In this document: piece after piece, positions 595 through 11,286 of the stretch | Layout of the letters: the number at the start of each line of letters is the position of its first letter | Position numbering within the stretch: position 1 is the first letter of the stretch | Virus record (IMG/VR): IMGVR_UViG_3300044522_000545 | Location: 1 to 39,136 of that record | Direction: 5' to 3' (one strand) | Length of the DNA: 39,136 nucleotides | From: a virus | The notes under the pieces: generated by a model | Databases searched by the model: none | What the model was told of the DNA's origin: nothing | What the model saw: the letters and a program-made list of their open reading frames with translations, nothing else | Translations under genes and position numbers: made by a program

Positions 595-618
595 AAAAAG
601 ATTTGTTGCCCAAGGGGC

Positions 619-646
619 TTGACAGGGGCTGAATCAATGGTATACT
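619..646 (+). promoter_or_regulatory. early sigma70 promoter, cassette 1
   Basis: TTGACA, 16-bp spacer, TATACT with extended -10 TGG. The -10 ends 6 nt before the ATG at 653. This is the only early cassette promoter with a 16-bp rather than 17-bp spacer. Confidence 0.9.
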
Positions 647-652
647 ACCCGC

Positions 653-865
653 ATGAACACCGAACACACCTACGACTTCGTCTCAACTCATCCTCCACGA
701 AAAACCCCAAAGGATAAGGTTGTCGCCCCCTCCGTGGACTCCACCAAGAAACTCCTTGAGGAAATCAAGGAGTTGCAGAAGTTGTTGGCAACCTACAAGG
801 CAACCACACAGAAGTTGATCGTCGAGAAGAATCTTCTCTTGGACATCATCAAGGGGATCAAGTAA
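653..865 (+). CDS. early cassette 1 protein, 70 aa, coiled-coil C-terminus
   Basis: First gene of the early array. The ATG lies 6 nt after the promoter -10 box and has no Shine-Dalgarno, so translation is probably leaderless. The first 30 residues are polar and Pro-rich; from about residue 31 a Leu/Lys/Glu-rich segment (KKLLEEIKELQKLL and on to the C-terminus) should form a coiled coil, implying dimerisation or binding to a host protein. No family recognised. It has its own promoter and its own terminator, so it is monocistronic. A role in early takeover of the host is inferred only from promoter class and size. Confidence 0.8.
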   Translation: MNTEHTYDFVSTHPPRKTPKDKVVAPSVDSTKKLLEEIKELQKLLATYKATTQKLIVEKNLLLDIIKGIK

Positions 866-923
866 CGGTGAAGAATGCTCTCATCCGTGTGTGGTCATCA
901 CTCCGAAGAGGTTGACCACCCTC

Positions 924-966
924 AAACTCCCCCTCATGCCGCAAGGTGTGAGGGGGAGTTTTTTCT
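924..966 (+). terminator. intrinsic terminator, cassette 1
   Basis: The stem CTCCCCCTCATGCC pairs with GGTGTGAGGGGGAG around a GCAA tetraloop, extended by AAA/TTT pairs and followed by a T tract. The 58 bp between the stop and this hairpin contain a smaller inverted repeat (GTGGTCA/TGACCAC). Confidence 0.9.
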
Positions 967-989
967 TTGGATTTTTTCGTGCAAAGGGG

Positions 990-1018
990 TAGACAGGGCA
1001 TCGAATCAATGGTATACT
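990..1018 (+). promoter_or_regulatory. early sigma70 promoter, cassette 2
   Basis: TAGACA (one mismatch from TTGACA), 17 bp, TATACT with extended -10 TGG; the -10 ends 6 nt before the ATG at 1025. This is the weakest -35 of the array. Confidence 0.85.
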
Positions 1019-1024
1019 ACCCGC

Positions 1025-1255
1025 ATGAAGACCACCACCACCCCGTCATTCACCTACATCATCACCACTCAGACCCTCTCATCAGGCTTTGAGGGTCAAT
1101 CGGGCGAGCCGTCGATGTTCAAGGTTGAGTCGCCTCGTCGCCTCTTTCGAGGTGACATCGTGCGATGTATGCAGCCTCTTGGATATGATCGTGCGGTTGA
1201 CAGCCTCGACTTCAAGGAGTTGAGCAGCATCGGCACGATTGTCTTCGAGGGCTGA
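1025..1255 (+). CDS. early cassette 2 protein, 76 aa
   Basis: The start at 1025 is chosen because it sits at the position shared by all cassettes, 6 nt after the -10 hexamer; a longer in-frame reading back to 875 would translate the terminator and promoter and is rejected. The protein begins MKTTTTPSF, followed by a Thr/Ser-rich stretch and a probably beta-rich central part (FRGDIVRCMQPLGYDRAVDS), ending in an acidic tail. No known domain seen. Monocistronic, leaderless and with its own terminator. Confidence 0.8.
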   Translation: MKTTTTPSFTYIITTQTLSSGFEGQSGEPSMFKVESPRRLFRGDIVRCMQPLGYDRAVDSLDFKELSSIGTIVFEG

Positions 1256-1270
1256 CCTCGTATCCTCATG

Positions 1271-1308
1271 CTCCTCCTCATGCCGCAAGGTGTGAGGAGG
1301 AGTTTTTT
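1271..1308 (+). terminator. intrinsic terminator, cassette 2
   Basis: CTCCTCCTCATGCC and GGTGTGAGGAGGAG pair around a GCAA tetraloop, followed by six T. Compared with cassette 1 the stem carries compensating changes (CCT/AGG for CCC/GGG), so pairing is conserved. Confidence 0.9.
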
Positions 1309-1333
1309 CTTTGGATTTTTATCGCTGACCCCA

Positions 1334-1362
1334 TTGACATAGAGAATCTTTTGTGGTAAGAT
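1334..1362 (+). promoter_or_regulatory. second upstream sigma70-like promoter before cassette 3
   Basis: TTGACA, 17 bp, TAAGAT with extended TGG, about 85 bp upstream of the main cassette promoter. The same element occurs before cassettes 6 and 8 with almost identical sequence. A transcript from here would start near 1369 and run through the main promoter, giving a leadered mRNA. Confidence 0.65.
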
Positions 1363-1419
1363 GGATACGGACGACTAAAATTCCGAAGAAAAATCCTAAA
1401 AGATTTCCGCGCAAAGGGC

Positions 1420-1448
1420 TTGACACCGTAGTGAATCAATGGTATATT
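1420..1448 (+). promoter_or_regulatory. early sigma70 promoter, cassette 3
   Basis: TTGACA, 17 bp, TATATT with extended TGG; 6 nt to the ATG at 1455. Confidence 0.88.
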
Positions 1449-1454
1449 ACCCAC

Positions 1455-1778
1455 ATGAAGAACACCACCACATATTACACCACCCCAACCGCACTCGCGT
1501 CAGACAAGAACCGCCTCATCCTCGTCGAGGCGTTCAATCAGTACTTGGACGAGTTCAGCCTCCTCAATTATGAGCGGGTCACTCGTCCGAAGAAGGAAAC
1601 CCTCGATGGGATGCTCGACCGCTGCATCACGCTTGGGGAACTCCTGCCGCTGACTGAGGGCAAGATCACTGCCCTGACGAGCAGTTTCCAACACCTCAAG
1701 AGTTTCAACAATGGGGGAGGCGAAACCTCGATGGACACCATCTCTGACATCTCAGAGATCCTTGAGGCAAAGTTCTGA
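1455..1778 (+). CDS. early cassette 3 protein, 107 aa
   Basis: Starts MKNTTTYYTT at the conserved leaderless position; the in-frame extension to a GTG at 1353 is translated promoter sequence and is not used. The protein is mainly acidic and probably helical (EAFNQYLDEFSLLNYE in the first half; SDISEILEAKF at the end). No family recognised. It is one of three cassettes with an additional promoter about 85 bp further upstream, so it may be expressed over a longer time. It shares its first codons (MKxTTTYY) with cassette 4. Confidence 0.8.
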   Translation: MKNTTTYYTTPTALASDKNRLILVEAFNQYLDEFSLLNYERVTRPKKETLDGMLDRCITLGELLPLTEGKITALTSSFQHLKSFNNGGGETSMDTISDISEILEAKF

Positions 1779-1784
1779 GACCCG

Positions 1785-1810
1785 AACCCCCGCGCAAGCG
1801 GGGGTTTTTT
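1785..1810 (+). terminator. intrinsic terminator, cassette 3
   Basis: AACCCCCGC and GCGGGGGTT around a GCAA tetraloop, then a T tract. The primary sequence differs from cassettes 1 and 2 but the GNRA loop is kept. Confidence 0.9.
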
Positions 1811-1836
1811 CTTTTGGATTTTTTCGTCCAAGGGGC

Positions 1837-1865
1837 TTGACATCGGCTGAATCATATGGTACAAT
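1837..1865 (+). promoter_or_regulatory. early sigma70 promoter, cassette 4
   Basis: TTGACA, 17 bp, TACAAT with extended TGG; spacer contains TGAATCATATGG; 6 nt to the ATG at 1872. Confidence 0.88.
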
Positions 1866-1871
1866 AGACGC

Positions 1872-2060
1872 ATGAAGATCACCACCACATATTACGGCAT
1901 TGTGTATCACGGCGGATCCCTTTTGGGTCTCGGCACATACGGCGAGACCAAATCGTACCGTTCGTTTGCGGCTGCTGAAAAGGCGGTCGCGCGTCTCCTG
2001 AGCAAGTGTCGCAAGATCTGCGGTGGCTCCCCATCGGCAGAAATTTACTCCTGTTGGTGA
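1872..2060 (+). CDS. early cassette 4 protein, 62 aa
   Basis: Begins MKITTTYYGIVYHGG at the leaderless position. The short protein has an N-terminal beta-like half (GSLLGLGTYGE) and a basic helix (SFAAAEKAVARLLSKCRK), then two further Cys residues. The strand-strand-helix pattern looks like a small folded domain, but I cannot assign a family. Monocistronic with its own promoter and hairpin. Inferred early function only. Confidence 0.75.
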   Translation: MKITTTYYGIVYHGGSLLGLGTYGETKSYRSFAAAEKAVARLLSKCRKICGGSPSAEIYSCW

Positions 2061-2068
2061 ACCAACAG

Positions 2069-2092
2069 CCCACCCGAAAGGGTGGGTTTTTT
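2069..2092 (+). terminator. intrinsic terminator, cassette 4
   Basis: CCCACCC and GGGTGGG around a GAAA tetraloop followed by six T. Confidence 0.9.
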
Positions 2093-2116
2093 CTTTGGAT
2101 TTGTTGGTCAAGGGGC

Positions 2117-2145
2117 TTGACAGCGGCTGAATCATATGGTATACT
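2117..2145 (+). promoter_or_regulatory. early sigma70 promoter, cassette 5
   Basis: TTGACA, 17 bp, TATACT with extended TGG; 6 nt to the ATG at 2152. Confidence 0.9.
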
Positions 2146-2151
2146 ACCCGC

Positions 2152-2379
2152 ATGAAGAACACCAACACCTACATCCTCACCATCGGGCAGATCAGCAGCG
2201 AACACGGAACTCACCAAGGGGCTGTTGCAGCATTCTACGACAAGTACCCTGATGGAGATGCGGGTCATTGCGGTGACCTTACAGACGGGGGAGATCGTAC
2301 CCTCTGTTGGGCAGACCCTGTCGATTCAGACGGAGATGACGGCTACAATGCTGTGGGAGAGATCCGCATGAGCCAATAA
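2152..2379 (+). CDS. early cassette 5 protein, 75 aa, acidic
   Basis: Begins MKNTNTYILTIGQ at the leaderless position. The C-terminal half is strongly acidic (DPVDSDGDDGYNAVGE) and the middle contains two Cys and several Asp/Gly residues. The overall charge is clearly negative, so a DNA mimic or an inhibitor of a basic host protein is imaginable, but nothing in the sequence proves it. No family recognised. Confidence 0.78.
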   Translation: MKNTNTYILTIGQISSEHGTHQGAVAAFYDKYPDGDAGHCGDLTDGGDRTLCWADPVDSDGDDGYNAVGEIRMSQ

Positions 2380-2390
2380 GTATCTTCATG

Positions 2391-2426
2391 CTCCCCCTCA
2401 TGCCGCAAGGTGTGAGGGGGAGTTTT
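2391..2426 (+). terminator. intrinsic terminator, cassette 5
   Basis: Same hairpin as cassette 1 (CTCCCCCTCATGCC, GCAA loop) with a shorter T tract (TTTTC). Confidence 0.88.
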
Positions 2427-2451
2427 CTTTGGATTTTTATCGCTGACCCCA

Positions 2452-2480
2452 TTGACATAGAGAATCTTTTGTGGTAAGAT
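2452..2480 (+). promoter_or_regulatory. second upstream sigma70-like promoter before cassette 6
   Basis: TTGACA, 17 bp, TAAGAT with extended TGG; nearly identical to 1334-1362. Confidence 0.65.
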
Positions 2481-2537
2481 GGATATGGACGACTAAAATC
2501 CTGAACAAAAATAAAAAAAGATTTCCGTCCAAAGGGC

Positions 2538-2566
2538 TTGACATCGTAGTGAATCAATGGTATACT
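2538..2566 (+). promoter_or_regulatory. early sigma70 promoter, cassette 6
   Basis: TTGACA, 17 bp, TATACT with extended TGG; 6 nt to the ATG at 2573. Confidence 0.9.
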
Positions 2567-2572
2567 CACCGC

Positions 2573-2842
2573 ATGAAGACCTCAAACCCAACCGCCCTCC
2601 TCGTCATGTACTATGTGGTCACAGGGATCACTCCCCAAGGTTCGCGCCAAAGCGCGAAGTTTCAAACACAAGAGTTCGCAAGAGCGCACCTGACGCATTT
2701 TGTCAGTGGGACGGTGTGGGCGGTCAATCCGTACCACAAGCGTTCGCTTGTAGCGCGGGTGAGAACATACACGGTGTGGGCGGTCAATCCGTACCACAAG
2801 CGTTCGCTTGTAGCGCGGGTGAGAACATACACACCCGCCTGA
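2573..2842 (+). CDS. early cassette 6 protein, 89 aa, with perfect internal duplication
   Basis: Begins MKTSNPTALL at the leaderless position. After about 46 residues it contains a 20-residue block (TVWAVNPYHKRSLVARVRTY) twice in tandem, encoded by a perfect 60-bp duplication at 2711-2830; the protein ends TPA just after the second copy. The block is basic and probably helical. Because the unit is a multiple of three the frame is kept, so the ancestor was probably 69 aa. No family recognised. A second open frame across the repeat (2557-2910) is a shadow. Confidence 0.75.
   Translation: MKTSNPTALLVMYYVVTGITPQGSRQSAKFQTQEFARAHLTHFVSGTVWAVNPYHKRSLVARVRTYTVWAVNPYHKRSLVARVRTYTPA
2711..2830 (+). 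repeat. perfect 60-bp tandem duplication
   Basis: The unit 2711-2770 is repeated without any mismatch at 2771-2830, inside the cassette 6 gene. Identity at silent sites shows it is recent, or an assembly artefact. Confidence 0.95.
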
Positions 2843-2857
2843 TCCTCACCCGAAGAG

Positions 2858-2885
2858 ATCCCACCCGAAAGGGTGGGATTTTTTT
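2858..2885 (+). terminator. intrinsic terminator, cassette 6
   Basis: ATCCCACCC and GGGTGGGAT around a GAAA tetraloop followed by T tract. Confidence 0.9.
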
Positions 2886-2906
2886 GGATTTTTTCGTCCA
2901 AAGTGC

Positions 2907-2935
2907 TTGACATCATGTGAATCATATGGTATACT
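2907..2935 (+). promoter_or_regulatory. early sigma70 promoter, cassette 7
   Basis: TTGACA, 17 bp, TATACT with extended TGG; 6 nt to the ATG at 2942. Confidence 0.9.
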
Positions 2936-2941
2936 ACCCGC

Positions 2942-3283
2942 ATGAAGAACACCACCAACACCACAATGACCGCCACCGCCCTCAAGTTGCTTGATATGCA
3001 CAAGCAACTCCAAAAAATGTTTGAGATCGAGTGCGACATCGAATTCGAGGCTCGTCGAATACAATCGACGGGCGGCAATAATCAAGAGGAAGTGCGTCTC
3101 ACAGCCTGTATCACAGACAGCCTGTATCAGGCTCTGTGCGCTGTCTCAAGCGCAGCCAATGTGATCGAGGAGCGAGCAGCGCAGAAGCGCGACGATGTGG
3201 GCTTGGAACGCCTTGTCGATAACGCAATGGTGGACTGTGATCCACGCACGGACATTGATTGGATGTCCAACGGCGCAGACTGA
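2942..3283 (+). CDS. early cassette 7 protein, 113 aa, helical
   Basis: Begins MKNTTNTTMTATALKLL at the leaderless position. Long stretches without Pro or Gly and with heptad-like spacing (LKLLDMHKQLQKMFEIE; LYQALCAVSSAANVIEERAAQ) suggest an all-helical protein, probably oligomeric. No recognised family. It ends with an acidic segment (DCDPRTDIDW). Monocistronic, with its own promoter and terminator. Confidence 0.78.
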   Translation: MKNTTNTTMTATALKLLDMHKQLQKMFEIECDIEFEARRIQSTGGNNQEEVRLTACITDSLYQALCAVSSAANVIEERAAQKRDDVGLERLVDNAMVDCDPRTDIDWMSNGAD

Positions 3284-3298
3284 TAATGACCCTTCATG

Positions 3299-3337
3299 CC
3301 CTTCTCCACGCCGAAATGGTGTGGGGAGGGGTTTTTT
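3299..3337 (+). terminator. intrinsic terminator, cassette 7
   Basis: A 14-bp stem (CCCTTCTCCACGCC with GGTGTGGGGAGGGG, using some G-T pairs) around GAAAT, then six T. Confidence 0.88.
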
Positions 3338-3362
3338 CTTTGGATTTTTATCGCTGACCCCC

Positions 3363-3391
3363 TTGACATAGAGAATCTTTTGTGGTAAGAT
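3363..3391 (+). promoter_or_regulatory. second upstream sigma70-like promoter before cassette 8
   Basis: TTGACA, 17 bp, TAAGAT with extended TGG; third copy of the element at 1334 and 2452. Confidence 0.65.
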
Positions 3392-3448
3392 GGATATGGA
3401 CGACTAAAATCCCGAACAAAAATCCTAAAAGATTTCCGCGCAAAGGGC

Positions 3449-3477
3449 TTGACATCGTAGTGAATCAATGGTATACT
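3449..3477 (+). promoter_or_regulatory. early sigma70 promoter, cassette 8
   Basis: TTGACA, 17 bp, TATACT with extended TGG; 6 nt to the ATG at 3484. Confidence 0.9.
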
Positions 3478-3483
3478 ACCCAC

Positions 3484-3951
3484 ATGAAGACCTCAACCAC
3501 CACATCCTTGGCAGCAAAACTCCTCTTTGAAACCGCAGTCGAATCCCACTACGCAAACAGTTGCAAGTGGAACATCTCAAGTCAGACACATATGTGTCTC
3601 ACAGGAGCATCAGAGGAATCAGGAATTCCTTACGGAATTCTCCACATTGCGATGGGCGAACTCGTCGCCAAAAAATTGCTGCGCGATGTCCATGACACTT
3701 GCCGTGGAATGCTGAAGCAAAACCTCAGCACAACGCGCTACATTACGCCGACACTCAGTTCGATTCCCTCCGAACCAACGATCTGCATGGGCATCAGTTT
3801 CCTTGTCCAAAAGTTTCTTGCGAGATATTCTCGCGAATCGGTGGCATTTGCTGAGTTTGTGACAAAAATCAATCCTGACTTCTCAGAATACAGTCAAGAA
3901 CTTCAGGATTGGTTGGCGATTAGCGAGAACCTGACCATTGGCGATAGATAA
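3484..3951 (+). CDS. early cassette 8 protein, 155 aa (possible winged-helix-like segment)
   Basis: The largest protein of the early array. It begins MKTSTTTSLAAKLL at the leaderless position. Residues about 40-70 (ASEESGIPYGILHIAMGELV followed by AKKLLRD) have the spacing of a winged helix-turn-helix of the kind 'selection helix, then a Lys/Arg-rich wing', but the match is by eye and weak. The rest is mixed, with a Thr/Ser-rich linker and an acidic C-terminus (NPDFSEYSQELQDW). If the helix-turn-helix is real it could be an early regulator. One of three cassettes with an extra promoter upstream. Confidence 0.78.
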   Translation: MKTSTTTSLAAKLLFETAVESHYANSCKWNISSQTHMCLTGASEESGIPYGILHIAMGELVAKKLLRDVHDTCRGMLKQNLSTTRYITPTLSSIPSEPTICMGISFLVQKFLARYSRESVAFAEFVTKINPDFSEYSQELQDWLAISENLTIGDR

Positions 3952-3960
3952 CCCTTCATA

Positions 3961-3997
3961 CTCCCCCTCATGCCGCAAGGTGTGGGGGGGAGTTTTT
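3961..3997 (+). terminator. intrinsic terminator, cassette 8
   Basis: CTCCCCCTCATGCC with GCAA loop and TTTTT. A late promoter box starts at the next base (3998), so one transcription unit ends and another begins with no spacer. Confidence 0.88.
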
Positions 3998-4005
3998 CAT
4001 AAATA
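3998..4005 (+). promoter_or_regulatory. T4-type late promoter box (leaderless geometry)
   Basis: CATAAATA, one mismatch from the T4 late consensus TATAAATA, ending 5 nt before the ATG at 4011. Confidence 0.7.
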
Positions 4006-4010
4006 TCAAT

Positions 4011-4292
4011 ATGGGTAGAATCGCTTCACAAAATCGTTCGATGAGACGGCATAGTCTTTCAATACGAAAAATTATTGAAGATAATGACATATCGTCGATC
4101 CTCTTCACGAAGAAAAATGGGCGCAGACGCAGAATGATCTGCACCCTCAACATGGGGAGGATCCCTGAAGAGGCGCACCCAAGCACCGACATGACCTACA
4201 TCACCTCTCAGATCCGTGTGTGGGATTTGAAGAAGTCGGCATGGCGTTCTTTTCGACCATCAAGTCTAATTGACATCGAAGAAGTGATCTGA
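4011..4292 (+). CDS. small SH3-barrel-like protein (DUF2693-like), 93 aa
   Basis: The only late-promoter gene inside the early array. The core FTKKNGRRRRMICTLN, then IPEEAHP, and the C-terminal RVWDLKKSAWRSFRPSSLI match my memory of the DUF2693 / SH3 beta-barrel-fold proteins of T4-like cyanophages (FTKxDGxxRxMxCTLN ... RVxDxxxxAWRSFR). The N-terminal 30 residues are very basic, suggesting nucleic-acid binding. There is no Shine-Dalgarno; the ATG is 5 nt after the late box, so a leaderless late transcript is predicted. Its job is unknown. Confidence 0.7.
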   Translation: MGRIASQNRSMRRHSLSIRKIIEDNDISSILFTKKNGRRRRMICTLNMGRIPEEAHPSTDMTYITSQIRVWDLKKSAWRSFRPSSLIDIEEVI

Positions 4293-4320
4293 GATTTTTT
4301 CAGATTCTCGCCCAAGGGGC

Positions 4321-4349
4321 TTGACAAGGGCTGAATCATATGGTATACT
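4321..4349 (+). promoter_or_regulatory. early sigma70 promoter, cassette 9
   Basis: TTGACA, 17 bp, TATACT with extended TGG; 6 nt to the ATG at 4356. Confidence 0.9.
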
Positions 4350-4355
4350 TCGCGC

Positions 4356-4679
4356 ATGAAGAACACCAACACCATCACCACCCCCTCAACCGTCAAGTTC
4401 TTCGCGGATACCCGCGAGGGAAAATCATTGTGCGCGGAATTCACGGTGATCGACACCACCGAAAACGGTAGCGTGAGAATTGGATTGGATACCGTTACAG
4501 AGGTGGGAGAGATCGGATATATCTACAGCCGCACCCATGTAGGTGCGATCCTACCTAGATTTGCAATGCAAGCATTCGCACCGATGCACCGTTGGATCAT
4601 GGATGGGGACGGGGAGTGGAACATTGACCTTCACCCGATTCAAGGGATGGGGTTCCAAACGCTCCCGCTCTGCTACTGA
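4356..4679 (+). CDS. early cassette 9 protein, 107 aa
   Basis: Begins MKNTNTITTPSTVKFF at the leaderless position. The sequence alternates hydrophobic and polar residues (GSVRIGLDTVTEVGEIGYIYSRTHVGAIL) and looks beta-rich; the C-terminal part is Trp/Asp-rich (RWIMDGDGEWNIDLHP). No family recognised. Own promoter and terminator. Confidence 0.78.
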   Translation: MKNTNTITTPSTVKFFADTREGKSLCAEFTVIDTTENGSVRIGLDTVTEVGEIGYIYSRTHVGAILPRFAMQAFAPMHRWIMDGDGEWNIDLHPIQGMGFQTLPLCY

Positions 4680-4691
4680 TAACCCTTCATG

Positions 4692-4731
4692 CTCCCCCTC
4701 ATGCCGCAATGGTGTGAGGGGGAGTTTTTTT
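4692..4731 (+). terminator. intrinsic terminator, cassette 9
   Basis: CTCCCCCTCATGCC stem with GCAAT loop, closing GGTGTGAGGGGGAG and eight T. Confidence 0.9.
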
Positions 4732-4756
4732 ATTTGGATTTTTTCACCCAAACCGC

Positions 4757-4785
4757 TTGACAGCGTACTGAATCAATGGTATACT
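4757..4785 (+). promoter_or_regulatory. early sigma70 promoter, cassette 10
   Basis: TTGACA, 17 bp, TATACT with extended TGG; 6 nt to the ATG at 4792. Confidence 0.9.
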
Positions 4786-4791
4786 ACCCAC

Positions 4792-5106
4792 ATGAAGAAC
4801 ACCACCCCAATGGCACACGATGCCTCGTCCACTTGCATGACCTGCTACAAATTCGTAATCGCTGAGTTCACCTCACGCATCACCTCACGCAAGGTGAATA
4901 AAACCCTTTGTACGGGTGACGGATTCGCCACCTACGGTGGTGCGCTCGCGGCGGCAGCACACGCGAGATCGTATTACACCATCGACGGTGACATCATCAT
5001 CACGGAACGACCGCTCACGCAGAAGGAACTTGAAGCCCGATTCCGCGCCCGTGATCGTGAGGAAGCCCAACGCTTCATGCATGGGACGCGCACTCGACCA
5101 ATTTGA
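4792..5106 (+). CDS. early cassette 10 protein, 104 aa
   Basis: Begins MKNTTPMAHDASSTC at the leaderless position; the in-frame reading back to 4543 would pass through a terminator and promoter. A C-x-x-C pair (CMTC) lies near the N-terminus with a third Cys further on, so metal binding is possible but incomplete. The middle is Ala/Gly-rich (YGGALAAAAHARSYY) and the C-terminus is a basic/acidic helix (KELEARFRARDREEAQRF). A short direct repeat (ACCTCACGCA, twice) lies at about 4868-4892. No family recognised. Confidence 0.78.
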   Translation: MKNTTPMAHDASSTCMTCYKFVIAEFTSRITSRKVNKTLCTGDGFATYGGALAAAAHARSYYTIDGDIIITERPLTQKELEARFRARDREEAQRFMHGTRTRPI

Positions 5107-5132
5107 CTTAGCGGACGGCTGAGTCAAGAAGA

Positions 5133-5162
5133 CCCTCCACATGGTGTGGAGGGTTTTTTTTT
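5133..5162 (+). terminator. intrinsic terminator, cassette 10
   Basis: CCCTCCACA and TGTGGAGGG around TGG, then nine T. The block GCTGAGTCAAGAAGA just before it is repeated exactly before the cassette 11 terminator. Confidence 0.9.
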
Positions 5163-5183
5163 GAATTTTTTCGTCAAAGGGGC

Positions 5184-5212
5184 TTGACAGCGGACTGAAT
5201 CAATGGTATACT
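5184..5212 (+). promoter_or_regulatory. early sigma70 promoter, cassette 11
   Basis: TTGACA, 17 bp, TATACT with extended TGG; 6 nt to the ATG at 5219. Confidence 0.9.
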
Positions 5213-5218
5213 ACCCGC

Positions 5219-5467
5219 ATGAAGAAAACCACTACCGTCCCTGCGTTAATCCCCAACATCGAAAAGCGACTTGCCGATTTTGAAACGGCGGTCAAGAACC
5301 CCACGCCGAAAGACACGGTGCGGAGCATGGACATCCGTGCGACGAAAATCGACAGGCTGCTTGGCATTCTCCGTGACCTCAAGGCAGAGGGATCAAGTGC
5401 CAAGGCATACGATTTCGCAAAGAGGCTAACCCAAGCGCAAGCAAGCAGGTGGTTGATTAGACGGTAA
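5219..5467 (+). CDS. early cassette 11 protein, 82 aa, basic
   Basis: Begins MKKTTTVPALIPNI at the leaderless position. It is basic and probably all-helical (EKRLADFETAVKN; DRLLGILRDLKAEG; AKAYDFAKRLTQAQASRWL). The first 14 residues parallel those of cassette 12 (MKNTTTVPASIANI) while the rest differs, suggesting that cassettes exchange 5' or 3' parts. No known family. Own promoter and terminator. Confidence 0.78.
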   Translation: MKKTTTVPALIPNIEKRLADFETAVKNPTPKDTVRSMDIRATKIDRLLGILRDLKAEGSSAKAYDFAKRLTQAQASRWLIRR

Positions 5468-5495
5468 TCCGTAGGGTCGGGCTGAGTCAAGAAGA

Positions 5496-5522
5496 CCCTC
5501 CACATGGTGTGGAGGGTTTTTT
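5496..5522 (+). terminator. intrinsic terminator, cassette 11
   Basis: Identical hairpin to cassette 10 (CCCTCCACA/TGTGGAGGG) and six T. Confidence 0.9.
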
Positions 5523-5547
5523 ATTTGGATTTTGTTGGTCAATAGGC

Positions 5548-5576
5548 TTGACAGCGGCTGAATCATATGCTATAAT
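5548..5576 (+). promoter_or_regulatory. early sigma70 promoter, cassette 12
   Basis: TTGACA, 17 bp, TATAAT (perfect consensus); TGC before the -10; 6 nt to the ATG at 5583. Confidence 0.92.
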
Positions 5577-5582
5577 CACCGC

Positions 5583-5906
5583 ATGAAGAACACCACCACC
5601 GTCCCTGCGTCAATCGCCAACATTCACCTCATCTCTTTCCCTGAAGCCACCAAACTTGAGGCTCGCGAGTGGGGCAAGCATCTCTACAACGATTCACGCA
5701 TGATCAGCCACAAGCAGTACGATCAAGCGTATTGGGACGCGCTGAACCGCATGAACAAGTCGAGGAGCGCATACATTCGCTCGATGGCGAGGAAGATCTG
5801 TGCGGGTCTTGGATGCCACCCATCTTATCGCCACCTTCGATGGGTGGCAACACAACCGATCTATGTGATCGAGTGTTGGGCGGGGATTGCGCTGCCGAAG
5901 GTCTGA
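5583..5906 (+). CDS. early cassette 12 protein, 107 aa
   Basis: Begins MKNTTTVPASIANI at the leaderless position. The body is basic with several aromatic residues (QYDQAYWDALNRMNKSRSAY) and three Cys in the last 40 residues. The C-terminus is hydrophobic (IYVIECWAGIALPKV) but too short and mixed for a clear membrane span. No family recognised. It stands behind a perfect-consensus promoter and is followed by a GAGA run and terminator. Confidence 0.78.
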   Translation: MKNTTTVPASIANIHLISFPEATKLEAREWGKHLYNDSRMISHKQYDQAYWDALNRMNKSRSAYIRSMARKICAGLGCHPSYRHLRWVATQPIYVIECWAGIALPKV

Positions 5907-5920
5907 GAGAGAGAGAGAGA

Positions 5921-5941
5921 CCCCGCGAAAGCGGGGTTTTT
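5921..5941 (+). terminator. intrinsic terminator, cassette 12
   Basis: CCCCGC and GCGGGG around a GAAA tetraloop, five T; preceded by a GA dinucleotide run. Confidence 0.88.
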
Positions 5942-5966
5942 CTTTGGATTTTTTCGTTCAAGGGGC

Positions 5967-5995
5967 TTGACAGTGGGTTGAATCTTTGGTATACT
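5967..5995 (+). promoter_or_regulatory. early sigma70 promoter, cassette 13 (no ORF)
   Basis: TTGACA, 17 bp, TATACT with extended TGG, fully intact, but the position where the ATG normally lies reads AAT. Confidence 0.88.
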
Positions 5996-6001
5996 ATTCG
6001 T

Positions 6002-6064
6002 AATTGCAATCGGCGTAAAGCGCGTCGAATCCTCCCATGCCGCAAGGTGTGGGAGGGTTTTTTT
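6002..6064 (+). ncRNA. candidate ~63-nt small RNA from an ORF-less cassette
   Basis: An intact early promoter (5967-5995) and an intact GNRA-loop terminator (6031-6066) are separated by only about 35 bp with no start codon at the usual place. The predicted transcript starts near 6002 and ends in the T tract near 6064. Its unique 5' part is about 29 nt (AATTGCAATCGGCGTAAAGC and 9 more), followed by the terminator hairpin, the usual architecture of a short regulatory RNA. The alternative is a cassette whose gene was deleted. The promoter shows no decay, which favours a selected transcript or a recent deletion. Confidence 0.5.
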
Positions 6065-6066
6065 TT
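6031..6066 (+). terminator. intrinsic terminator, cassette 13
   Basis: CCTCCCATGCC and GGTGTGGGAGG around GCAA, followed by nine T. Confidence 0.9.
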
Positions 6067-6087
6067 GAATTTTTTCGTCAAAGGGGC

Positions 6088-6116
6088 TTGACAGCGGCTG
6101 AATCATATGCTATAAT
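6088..6116 (+). promoter_or_regulatory. early sigma70 promoter, cassette 14
   Basis: TTGACA, 17 bp, TATAAT; 6 nt to the ATG at 6123. Promoter and spacer are identical to cassette 12. Confidence 0.92.
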
Positions 6117-6122
6117 CACCGC

Positions 6123-6410
6123 ATGAAGAACACCAACACCACATTCGTAATCTCACCGACCTACGACAACCCATACCCATCGGCATACGGTGCGCTGCGT
6201 GGAGGAATCTCAGCGCGACTTGATTCGGTGCTTTTTCGCGCCGATCTCCTCAAGGATCAGAATGATCCGATGGTTGAGGAGATCCGAATCCTCGCCAAGA
6301 GGATGGAAGAGTGCATCAAGGAGTGCGACAACGCAGTCGAAATTCACAACAACCAAAGGCTAAAGTGCTTAGAGGAGTTGGCAATCGCCGAGGCGAACAT
6401 CAACCGATAA
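6123..6410 (+). CDS. early cassette 14 protein, 95 aa, coiled coil
   Basis: Begins MKNTNTTFVISPTYDN at the leaderless position. Residues about 30-95 are a long amphipathic helix region (LDSVLFRADLLKDQ; EEIRILAKRMEECIKECDNA; LKCLEELAIAEANI) with three Cys, likely a helical hairpin or coiled-coil dimer. No family recognised. Last gene of the early array; its terminator abuts a perfect late box. Confidence 0.78.
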   Translation: MKNTNTTFVISPTYDNPYPSAYGALRGGISARLDSVLFRADLLKDQNDPMVEEIRILAKRMEECIKECDNAVEIHNNQRLKCLEELAIAEANINR

Positions 6411-6419
6411 CCCTTCATG

Positions 6420-6457
6420 CTCCCCCTCATGCCGAAATGGTGTGAGGGGGAGTTTTT
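6420..6457 (+). terminator. intrinsic terminator, cassette 14
   Basis: CTCCCCCTCATGCC with GAAAT loop and GGTGTGAGGGGGAG, five T; two bases later comes TATAAATA. Confidence 0.9.
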
Positions 6458-6458
6458 G

Positions 6459-6466
6459 TATAAATA
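6459..6466 (+). promoter_or_regulatory. T4-type late promoter box
   Basis: Perfect TATAAATA, directly after the early-array terminator; leader of about 13 nt to the ATG at 6485. Confidence 0.8.
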
Positions 6467-7038: not shown

Positions 7039-8168
7039 TGAAAACATTTCTAGAATTTATCACAGAAGCAACTTTCAATGGGGTGAAGGTCAAAGATACA
7101 GCATTCACAAAGAAATTCAAATCATTGGTGGGTATGGTAACAGCCAACGCAGCCAATCAATCAGGCATTCATCCCGCCTTCAAGGCAGCGGAGAACCATT
7201 GGCGTTTGACAGGTCATGTAGGTGATGCACATACGACTAGAGAAATTGCTGACATGAAGCGGAAGGTATTTGGCAGTGGTGGTGAGAATTCTGAGATTTA
7301 TTGGATTCACCACAAGCACGGTCTGATCAGGACTCCCGCACATGAAAATGAAACACACAGAGACCATGAAGAGGGATATGTTGGAAAGTTGCCTCCAAAG
7401 CATGAAATGGCTATCAGAAAGCCTCTCGCCCGTGGACGGATCGAGCATCATGGAGACGGTCATGGAAGCGTCACCCTTACAGCAACAACTCCGCACGATA
7501 CTCGTCATGCCATAGGTGTATTGAGACAACATTATCCAAAATATAGAATTCATAATGGTCACGGTCAAGAATTTGAAGAGTTTCATGAAGAAACTGATTT
7601 TTCTAAAAGATTCCAAAATCTGCACAGAGAAGTAAAGGCTATGTCAAAGAAGAGAATGACAACCGATCCAAATACTCCTCATATAATTCACGCAGCGGCA
7701 AGAAGCCCACACCTACTTACGGGTCATCATGGCGACGAACACATCACTCGCGAGATTGCTGATGCCAAGCGCAGAGTATTTGGTAGTGAGGGCGAGAATT
7801 CTGAATTATTTTGGCATCACAAAACTCATGGAATAGTGACAGTTCCCGTGACACCGAACACAACCCACGATGTTCACGAATATGAGGAAGGTGGAGTTCT
7901 TCATAATGATGTCGCAAGATCACTGAGAGATCCAAGAGCGGTGAATGCCAAAGGCAGAATCGAACATCACCCTCCTCATAGTCGCTATGGGGGAATCATA
8001 AGTCTCATGCCACAAATGGGAGGGGATCTTCGTACTGCTATTCGTGAAATGGAAAGAAAATATCCAACATATAAGATCCATAACGGTTACGGGGTAGAGT
8101 ACACCAAGGAAGATGTCAATAAAGTCACGAAAACAACTCTCATAATTCGACCCATTCAAAAACTATAA
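7038..8168 (+). CDS. putative internal head protein, 376 aa, with two tandem His-rich domains
   Basis: The N-terminus MKTFLEFITEATFNG closely resembles the capsid-targeting sequence of T4 internal proteins (MKTYQEFIAEA), with I-T-E before Ala as a likely prohead-protease site after residue 10. The body is an internal duplication: residues about 54-180 and 228-365 share TREIADxKRxVFGSxGENSE followed by a HHKxHG motif and an 'xGRIEHH' block, ending in YPxYxIHNGxGxE. The many conserved His residues could bind metal or be catalytic, but I do not recognise the fold. Start at 7038 from the TAATG overlap with the previous gene. Inferred to be packaged in the head and injected with the DNA. Confidence 0.8.
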   Translation: MKTFLEFITEATFNGVKVKDTAFTKKFKSLVGMVTANAANQSGIHPAFKAAENHWRLTGHVGDAHTTREIADMKRKVFGSGGENSEIYWIHHKHGLIRTPAHENETHRDHEEGYVGKLPPKHEMAIRKPLARGRIEHHGDGHGSVTLTATTPHDTRHAIGVLRQHYPKYRIHNGHGQEFEEFHEETDFSKRFQNLHREVKAMSKKRMTTDPNTPHIIHAAARSPHLLTGHHGDEHITREIADAKRRVFGSEGENSELFWHHKTHGIVTVPVTPNTTHDVHEYEEGGVLHNDVARSLRDPRAVNAKGRIEHHPPHSRYGGIISLMPQMGGDLRTAIREMERKYPTYKIHNGYGVEYTKEDVNKVTKTTLIIRPIQKL

Positions 8169-10038: not shown

Positions 10039-11286
10039 ATGAACAAATACAAAACAATTTTATCAGAAAATTTCATAAGAAATACAATGTGTCGCGCGGT
10101 TATAGTGAAAGAAGAAATGCTTCAAACCAAAGAATCTTGGCGCGATGATGGTGCTTTGGATGTAGACGCATGTGCTTTTAGTGATTATTTGAATTTTCTG
10201 TCAGAATCATCATCCCTCTCATTACCACAAATGCCGAACCAAGGCGGTGATAAGCCTACATGGAAAAAGGTTCAGGCAGGTTTTGATGAAGTAAAAACCC
10301 CTGAAGATCAAAAGAGATTGCACAAAGAAGGAAAAAAGATTCGTAAGAATCCACTTCTTGGTAAAGGTAATCCAAAATTGGCAAAGGAAAAACTTAATCC
10401 TCAAACTAAGCATCTTAGAACGCTAGGATTATCTCTCACGCCGCATAAAGAGGGTAGACTCAATACCTGTGCATCAGCAACACCTGAATGTGCGGCGGCA
10501 TGTCTAAACAAAGCAGGTCGTGGAAAGATGGAGGGTGTTCAAACAGGACGAATGAAGAGAATGGATCACATGATAGATCATCCATCCCACTTTATGGCGG
10601 CATTGCATGGTGAAGTACATTCACACGAAAAATCCTCCCGAGCAGCAGGTGAAACCCCCGTTGTTCGACCGAATATCGTTAGTGATATTCCTTTTGAAAA
10701 ACTACACCCACAAATCTTTACACAACATCCACATACAACATTTTATGATTATACGAAACATAAGGATCGTGTCATGAATCATGATGGTACGCCAAAACCT
10801 AATGCTTTACCAATTGGATCCGCCGTTCGTCGCGCTGCACATCACGCTGCACAGTCAGGTGCTACCCCAATAAATTCGGGGCCAACAGATCACACACCAA
10901 ATTACCATCTAACACTTTCTTCTACGGGTATACACGCAAAGGGTAATTGGAGTCATGTACGACAACATCTAAATAACGGCGGCGTTGCTGCTATGGTATT
11001 TGCGGTTGGTAAAGGTAAAAAATTGCCAACCCATGTTCATGATGAAGCAACAGGTGTAACACATCGAGTTGTTGATGGAGATGAGAGTGACCATCGTCAC
11101 ATGGATCATGAAAATAACGGAATACCGCATGGTACAGGAGTAATTGCAGGGCTTCGCATGAAGGGCGGAAAGAAGATGCTTGCAGCAGCAGGAGACTTTG
11201 CGGTAAAAGTTCCTCACGGAGCAACAGTTGTCCGTGTACCACCTATTCACGGAACAACCATGCACGGGGCAACAAAATCCCCATGA
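10039..11286 (+). CDS. GP88/DUF7227-like protein with capsid-targeting-like N-terminus, 415 aa
   Basis: From about residue 120 the sequence matches my memory of the phage GP88/DUF7227 family: RTLGLSLTPH, then a Cys signature with LNTCASATPECAAACLNKAG and a following KRMDHMIDHP; TPVVRPNIVSDIPFE; TTFYDYTK; NYHLTLS; RVVDGDESDHR; and GVIAGLRMKG. Family members are linked loosely to replication but their activity is not known to me. The N-terminal extension of about 90 residues begins MNKYKTILSENF, with an L-S-E site like the other putative head-packaged proteins here. No strong Shine-Dalgarno is visible before the ATG; an AAATAAGATTAGGA block like that at 6462 lies upstream. Confidence 0.75.
   Translation: MNKYKTILSENFIRNTMCRAVIVKEEMLQTKESWRDDGALDVDACAFSDYLNFLSESSSLSLPQMPNQGGDKPTWKKVQAGFDEVKTPEDQKRLHKEGKKIRKNPLLGKGNPKLAKEKLNPQTKHLRTLGLSLTPHKEGRLNTCASATPECAAACLNKAGRGKMEGVQTGRMKRMDHMIDHPSHFMAALHGEVHSHEKSSRAAGETPVVRPNIVSDIPFEKLHPQIFTQHPHTTFYDYTKHKDRVMNHDGTPKPNALPIGSAVRRAAHHAAQSGATPINSGPTDHTPNYHLTLSSTGIHAKGNWSHVRQHLNNGGVAAMVFAVGKGKKLPTHVHDEATGVTHRVVDGDESDHRHMDHENNGIPHGTGVIAGLRMKGGKKMLAAAGDFAVKVPHGATVVRVPPIHGTTMHGATKSP

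Follow-up and report, generated by a model that had tools for sequence, protein, structure and literature searches.

A promoter-terminator unit without an open reading frame in an array of predicted leaderless gene cassettes of a T4-type phage

Virulent phages make small noncoding RNAs, examples being T4 band C/D and sRNA1 and sRNA2 of Pseudomonas phage PAK_P3 (PMC4933390). The small noncoding RNA of a T4-type virulent phage (PMC4933390) is like the RNA of the locus described here, unit 13 of a cassette array, in the kind of RNA and the type of phage. That RNA was detected experimentally, whereas the unit 13 RNA is predicted, comes from an array of leaderless cassettes, and has no match in Rfam. 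The PAK_P3 sRNAs resemble unit 13 in being intergenic noncoding transcripts, about 100 nt in length, from a virulent phage (PMC4933390). In contrast to unit 13, they are abundant and late; the unit 13 promoter is host-like, and from architecture alone the unit is probably early.

The window, that is, the whole stretch of DNA that we analyzed (39,136 nt), is a linear 39-kb IMG/VR fragment of a T4-type phage. Among sequenced phages, its gp32-like protein has its closest counterparts in the T4-like cyanophages, with 54% identity to that of Synechococcus phage DSL-LC03. By eye we also recognized proteins that we take to be a ribonucleotide reductase and ThyX. A scan of the first 12 kb gave 31 promoter sites and 28 terminators, where 14.6 and 13.6, respectively, were expected. 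Within this region, 14 promoters of one family alternate with terminators and make up the array, of which unit 13 is the 13th unit.

About 600..6460, + strand, array of 14 promoter-terminator units, 13 with one leaderless ORF of 62 to 155 aa
5583..5906, + strand, ORF of the upstream neighbor cassette of unit 13, 107 aa, orphan
6123..6410, + strand, ORF of the downstream neighbor cassette of unit 13, 95 aa, orphan

Thirteen of the 14 units have their ATG exactly 6 nt past the -10 box, at the expected +1, and the mRNAs of these cassettes should therefore be leaderless. Codons 2 to 7 of the sibling ORFs are 87% A+C, compared with 53% deeper in the ORFs. All of the array cassette products that we tested were orphans.

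Three near-identical elements in the array (1334-1420, 2452-2538, and 3363-3449) carry a second promoter type, TTGACATAGAGAATCTTTTGTGGTAAGAT. Each is followed, at a distance of exactly 86 bp, by a cassette promoter and has no ORF or terminator of its own, and two of the three have a tiny ATG GAC GAC TAA frame near +1. One cassette ORF contains an exact in-frame 60-bp tandem duplication (2711-2830), by which 20 residues are repeated.

Unit 13 and its predicted RNA are made up of the following features.

5967..5995, + strand, sigma-70-type promoter: TTGACA, 17-nt spacer, TG-extended TATACT
6002..6066, + strand, predicted ORF-less RNA of 63 to 65 nt, which would end at about 6064 to 6066 if the unit is transcribed
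6002..6028, + strand, unique 5′ portion of this RNA, starting with AAT, with a possible weak 7-bp hairpin at 6010-6028
6029..6066, + strand, intrinsic terminator: 13-bp helix, GCAA tetraloop, and T run to 6066

We modeled the sibling promoters, excluding unit 13, and against this model the unit 13 promoter scored 46.9 bits. Apart from the array promoters, the highest score in the window was 6.4 bits, at a chance antisense site within the array. The GAATCA spacer motif, otherwise constant in the array promoters, reads GAATCT in unit 13. Despite this change, both promoter hexamers (-35 and -10) and the terminator are intact, in agreement with an earlier note on this DNA that had described both elements as intact. 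The terminator helix and loop span 6029-6058, and the core, CATGCCGCAAGGTGTG, is shared with sibling cassettes, which bears out the description of the hairpin as shared. Promoter and terminator are as close together as had been claimed, although the distance from the end of the -10 to the helix is 33 bp (31 bp with a longer stem from the scan) and not 35 bp.

The unit 13 promoter matches those of its siblings up to the CG preceding the start, after which the divergence is total. At 6002-6004, where 13 of the 13 other cassettes have ATG, unit 13 reads AAT. The A+C content of the equivalent of codons 2 to 7 is 0.52, which is the background level, compared with 0.87 in the siblings. Together, the AAT and the lack of the A/C bias mean that the whole gene start is gone, which goes beyond a start codon mutation. 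No ORF fits between the promoter and the terminator, where the sole frame is TTG CAA TCG GCG TAA, so the reading that nothing is encoded here was correct. The TAA at 6016-6018, about 10 nt before the terminator, resembles the end of a lost gene, but we set it aside because a nearby stop is likely by chance. Unit 13 has the promoter and terminator of an array cassette and lacks the leaderless ORF with an A/C-rich start; a promoter and terminator of its own without an ORF is also what a trans-acting phage sRNA would have.

The earlier prediction of an ORF-less unit giving an RNA of about 63 nt is sound as far as sequence can tell. In this RNA, 8 free bases would be followed by the 7-bp hairpin and then by the terminator hairpin. 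The entire predicted RNA folds at -31.8 kcal/mol (z, -5.1), and the terminator contributes most of this. The 5′ part alone folds ordinarily (z, -1.35): 28 of 200 shuffles were equally good, and 3.9% of the 29-mers in the window fold as well. This part had been called unique and 29 nt long. We found no similarity above shuffles between it and the rest of the window (130 of 200 shuffles reached the score), consistent with uniqueness, but its length before the helix is 27 nt. A search of the window with the Rfam 15 covariance models gave no matches at the gathering score, and the best score at unit 13 was 18.9 bits against a cutoff of 50. Matches below the cutoff in the array fell mostly on terminators, and we took them as chance.

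Pairing with host mRNA had been suggested as a possible function of the RNA, and so had action on the other cassettes through the shared terminator loop. Our results support neither, and we consider action through the loop unlikely. The GCAA loop is common to unit 13 and several siblings. GCAA is a GNRA tetraloop, a kind frequent in stable terminators, and is not self-complementary, so that it cannot pair with its own copy in a loop-loop kissing interaction. Common descent and stability suffice to account for the sharing of the loop.

Just downstream of unit 13, we found a patchwork junction made up of sequence from two sibling units.

6052..6135, + strand, patchwork junction, with 6052-6097 matching 5148-5193 and 6085-6135 matching 5545-5595

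The identities are exact over 46 bp and 51 bp. In addition, elements of 183 bp are present three times in the array. Together, the patchwork and the 183-bp elements indicate that repeats have recombined, a process that could empty cassettes as well. Unit 13 itself has a unique core (about 5974-6035), with no repeat of at least 16 nt.

The leaderless-cassette pattern retrieved other viral contigs with arrays (L175, L157, L159, L230, L128, and, in part, L242). These are alike in having a consensus promoter, an ATG mostly 6 nt past the -10, and tandem small ORFs, and in the four that we measured (L175, L157, L230, and L128), codons 2 to 7 are A/C rich (70 to 80%). They differ from the window array in promoter spacers and genes, and most are without a recognizable terminator after every unit. 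Every array promoter in L175 and L157 leads to an ORF, some of just 12 to 16 codons. L242 has two promoters without a real ORF and with a hairpin at the end (rc 7480-7610 and rc 10244-10430), and L230 has a promoter followed by an 8-codon unit and then hairpins (10219-10350). What follows these promoters is thus no ORF or a frame of 4 to 8 codons. The sequences of these units are unrelated to unit 13, and their folds were modest where tested; they are candidates for further small RNAs. ORF-less units therefore recur among the arrays, though they are not conserved.

Pistol ribozyme matches above the Rfam cutoff lie in L175 (2768-2853, - strand), L230 (9704-9758, + strand), and L157 (323-383, - strand), all of which have leaderless arrays. 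L242 has an Rfam tmRNA match of 67 bits over only 81 bases (5373-5453, - strand), for which ARAGORN made no call. A GC-rich ORF-less element, by eye roughly GGCCGGGGCGCAGCCCCTAAGTCCTTACGCAGACTAGACTTACGCA, occurs in about four copies between the cassettes of L175 (near 5690, 4190, 2490, and 1290, - strand).

The array was not found in IMG/VR with the exact promoter sequence or the array promoter patterns; 12 matches to the patterns were single chance matches only and were rejected as arrays. The neighbor-cassette proteins identified no relative with the array in IMG/VR, the array promoter pattern was found in none of the GTDB genomes, and phage records gave no meaningful match to the array as DNA or protein. 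We found no array in the stretches beside shared genes in the syntenic relatives G009, G015, G008, G012, and G014, which are fragments. Contig L009 has 100% identity in its shared proteins, and its start corresponds to position 6454 of the window, the array edge.

Our main reading, to which we give a probability of about 60%, takes unit 13 for an emptied cassette whose transcription probably continues, and our results support no selected function for its RNA. According to this model, each cassette is monocistronic, with its own strong host-type promoter, leaderless ORF, and intrinsic terminator, and recombination between the repeated promoters and terminators would reshape the array. The unit 13 ORF, with its start and A/C-rich first codons, would have been lost through deletion or replacement, leaving the promoter and terminator adjoining. 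Transcription by RNA polymerase most likely continues and gives a short, stable terminator-hairpin RNA of 63 to 65 nt. The anatomy, the missing ORF, and the patchwork repeats can be read directly from the sequence; the deletion event, the transcription, and the absence of function are what we infer. The reading draws on the missing gene start, the patchwork and the 183-bp elements, the ordinary fold of the 5′ part, and its lack of Rfam matches and of pairing with sibling mRNAs beyond shuffles. Consistently with this reading, nearly every unit of the most similar arrays elsewhere has an ORF, as do all units in L175 and L157. In a compact genome, a unit of no use might decay or vanish, yet the hexamers and terminator are intact; a recent gene loss, however, would leave unit 13 looking equally intact. 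Also against an emptied cassette, the ORF-less promoter-hairpin units of L242 could mean usefulness, and an ancestor or relative with a full gene at unit 13 was not found in IMG/VR, GTDB, or phage records.

It is possible, with a distinctly lower probability, that unit 13 makes a functional trans-acting phage sRNA. In that case, pairing with mRNAs of the host or phage would fall to the small hairpin and the 8 free nt at the 5′ end, while the terminator hairpin would give stability and possibly bind a chaperone. The ordinary fold of the 5′ hairpin and the lack of an Rfam match argue against this, as does our finding that shuffled controls paired with the 13 sibling mRNAs, over their first 60 nt, just as well as the 5′ part did. 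What speaks for an sRNA is the intact promoter and terminator without an ORF, the ORF-less units of L242, the good fold of the whole RNA, though this is mostly terminator, and the precedent of T4 band C/D and PAK_P3 sRNA1/2 (PMC4933390). We are more doubtful of the broader proposal that dedicated ORF-less sRNA cassettes are a regular ingredient of leaderless early-cassette arrays and that unit 13 is one, expressed at infection onset and regulating host or phage mRNAs.

Somewhat less probable again is a role in cis, with unit 13 serving as a spacer, transcription insulator, or recombination site between its neighbors and the RNA not acting in trans. Unit 13 does sit in a repeat-rich, evidently shuffled region, but the neighbor cassettes have terminators and promoters of their own, so added insulation seems unneeded.

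We think it very unlikely that unit 13 is an assembly artifact of the repeat-rich array. The record is metagenomic, L009 begins at the array edge, and the exact repeats of 46 to 51 bp lie on the right side of unit 13. The unit 13 core is unique, however, which argues against a joining of promoter and terminator through a repeat, and ordinary sequencing reads are longer than repeats of about 50 bp. Least probable is a minimal peptide, since both candidate frames exist mechanically but leaderless translation favors an AUG at the 5′ terminus (PMC9031893), while the TTG CAA TCG GCG TAA frame has TTG at +3 and the 29-codon frame, with its ATG at 6036, begins within the terminator helix and runs beyond the terminator.

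We regard the unit 13 RNA as a probable remnant of gene shuffling rather than as a proven regulator. If it is transcribed and functional, unit 13 would add to the short list of small RNAs from virulent T4-type phages, most of which have unknown functions. If it is empty, unit 13 would be a snapshot of array turnover, in which strong promoters and terminators act as repeats between which small orphan genes come and go. The architecture of leaderless, single-gene cassettes with A/C-rich starts is common to several viral contigs and is of more interest than unit 13 itself.
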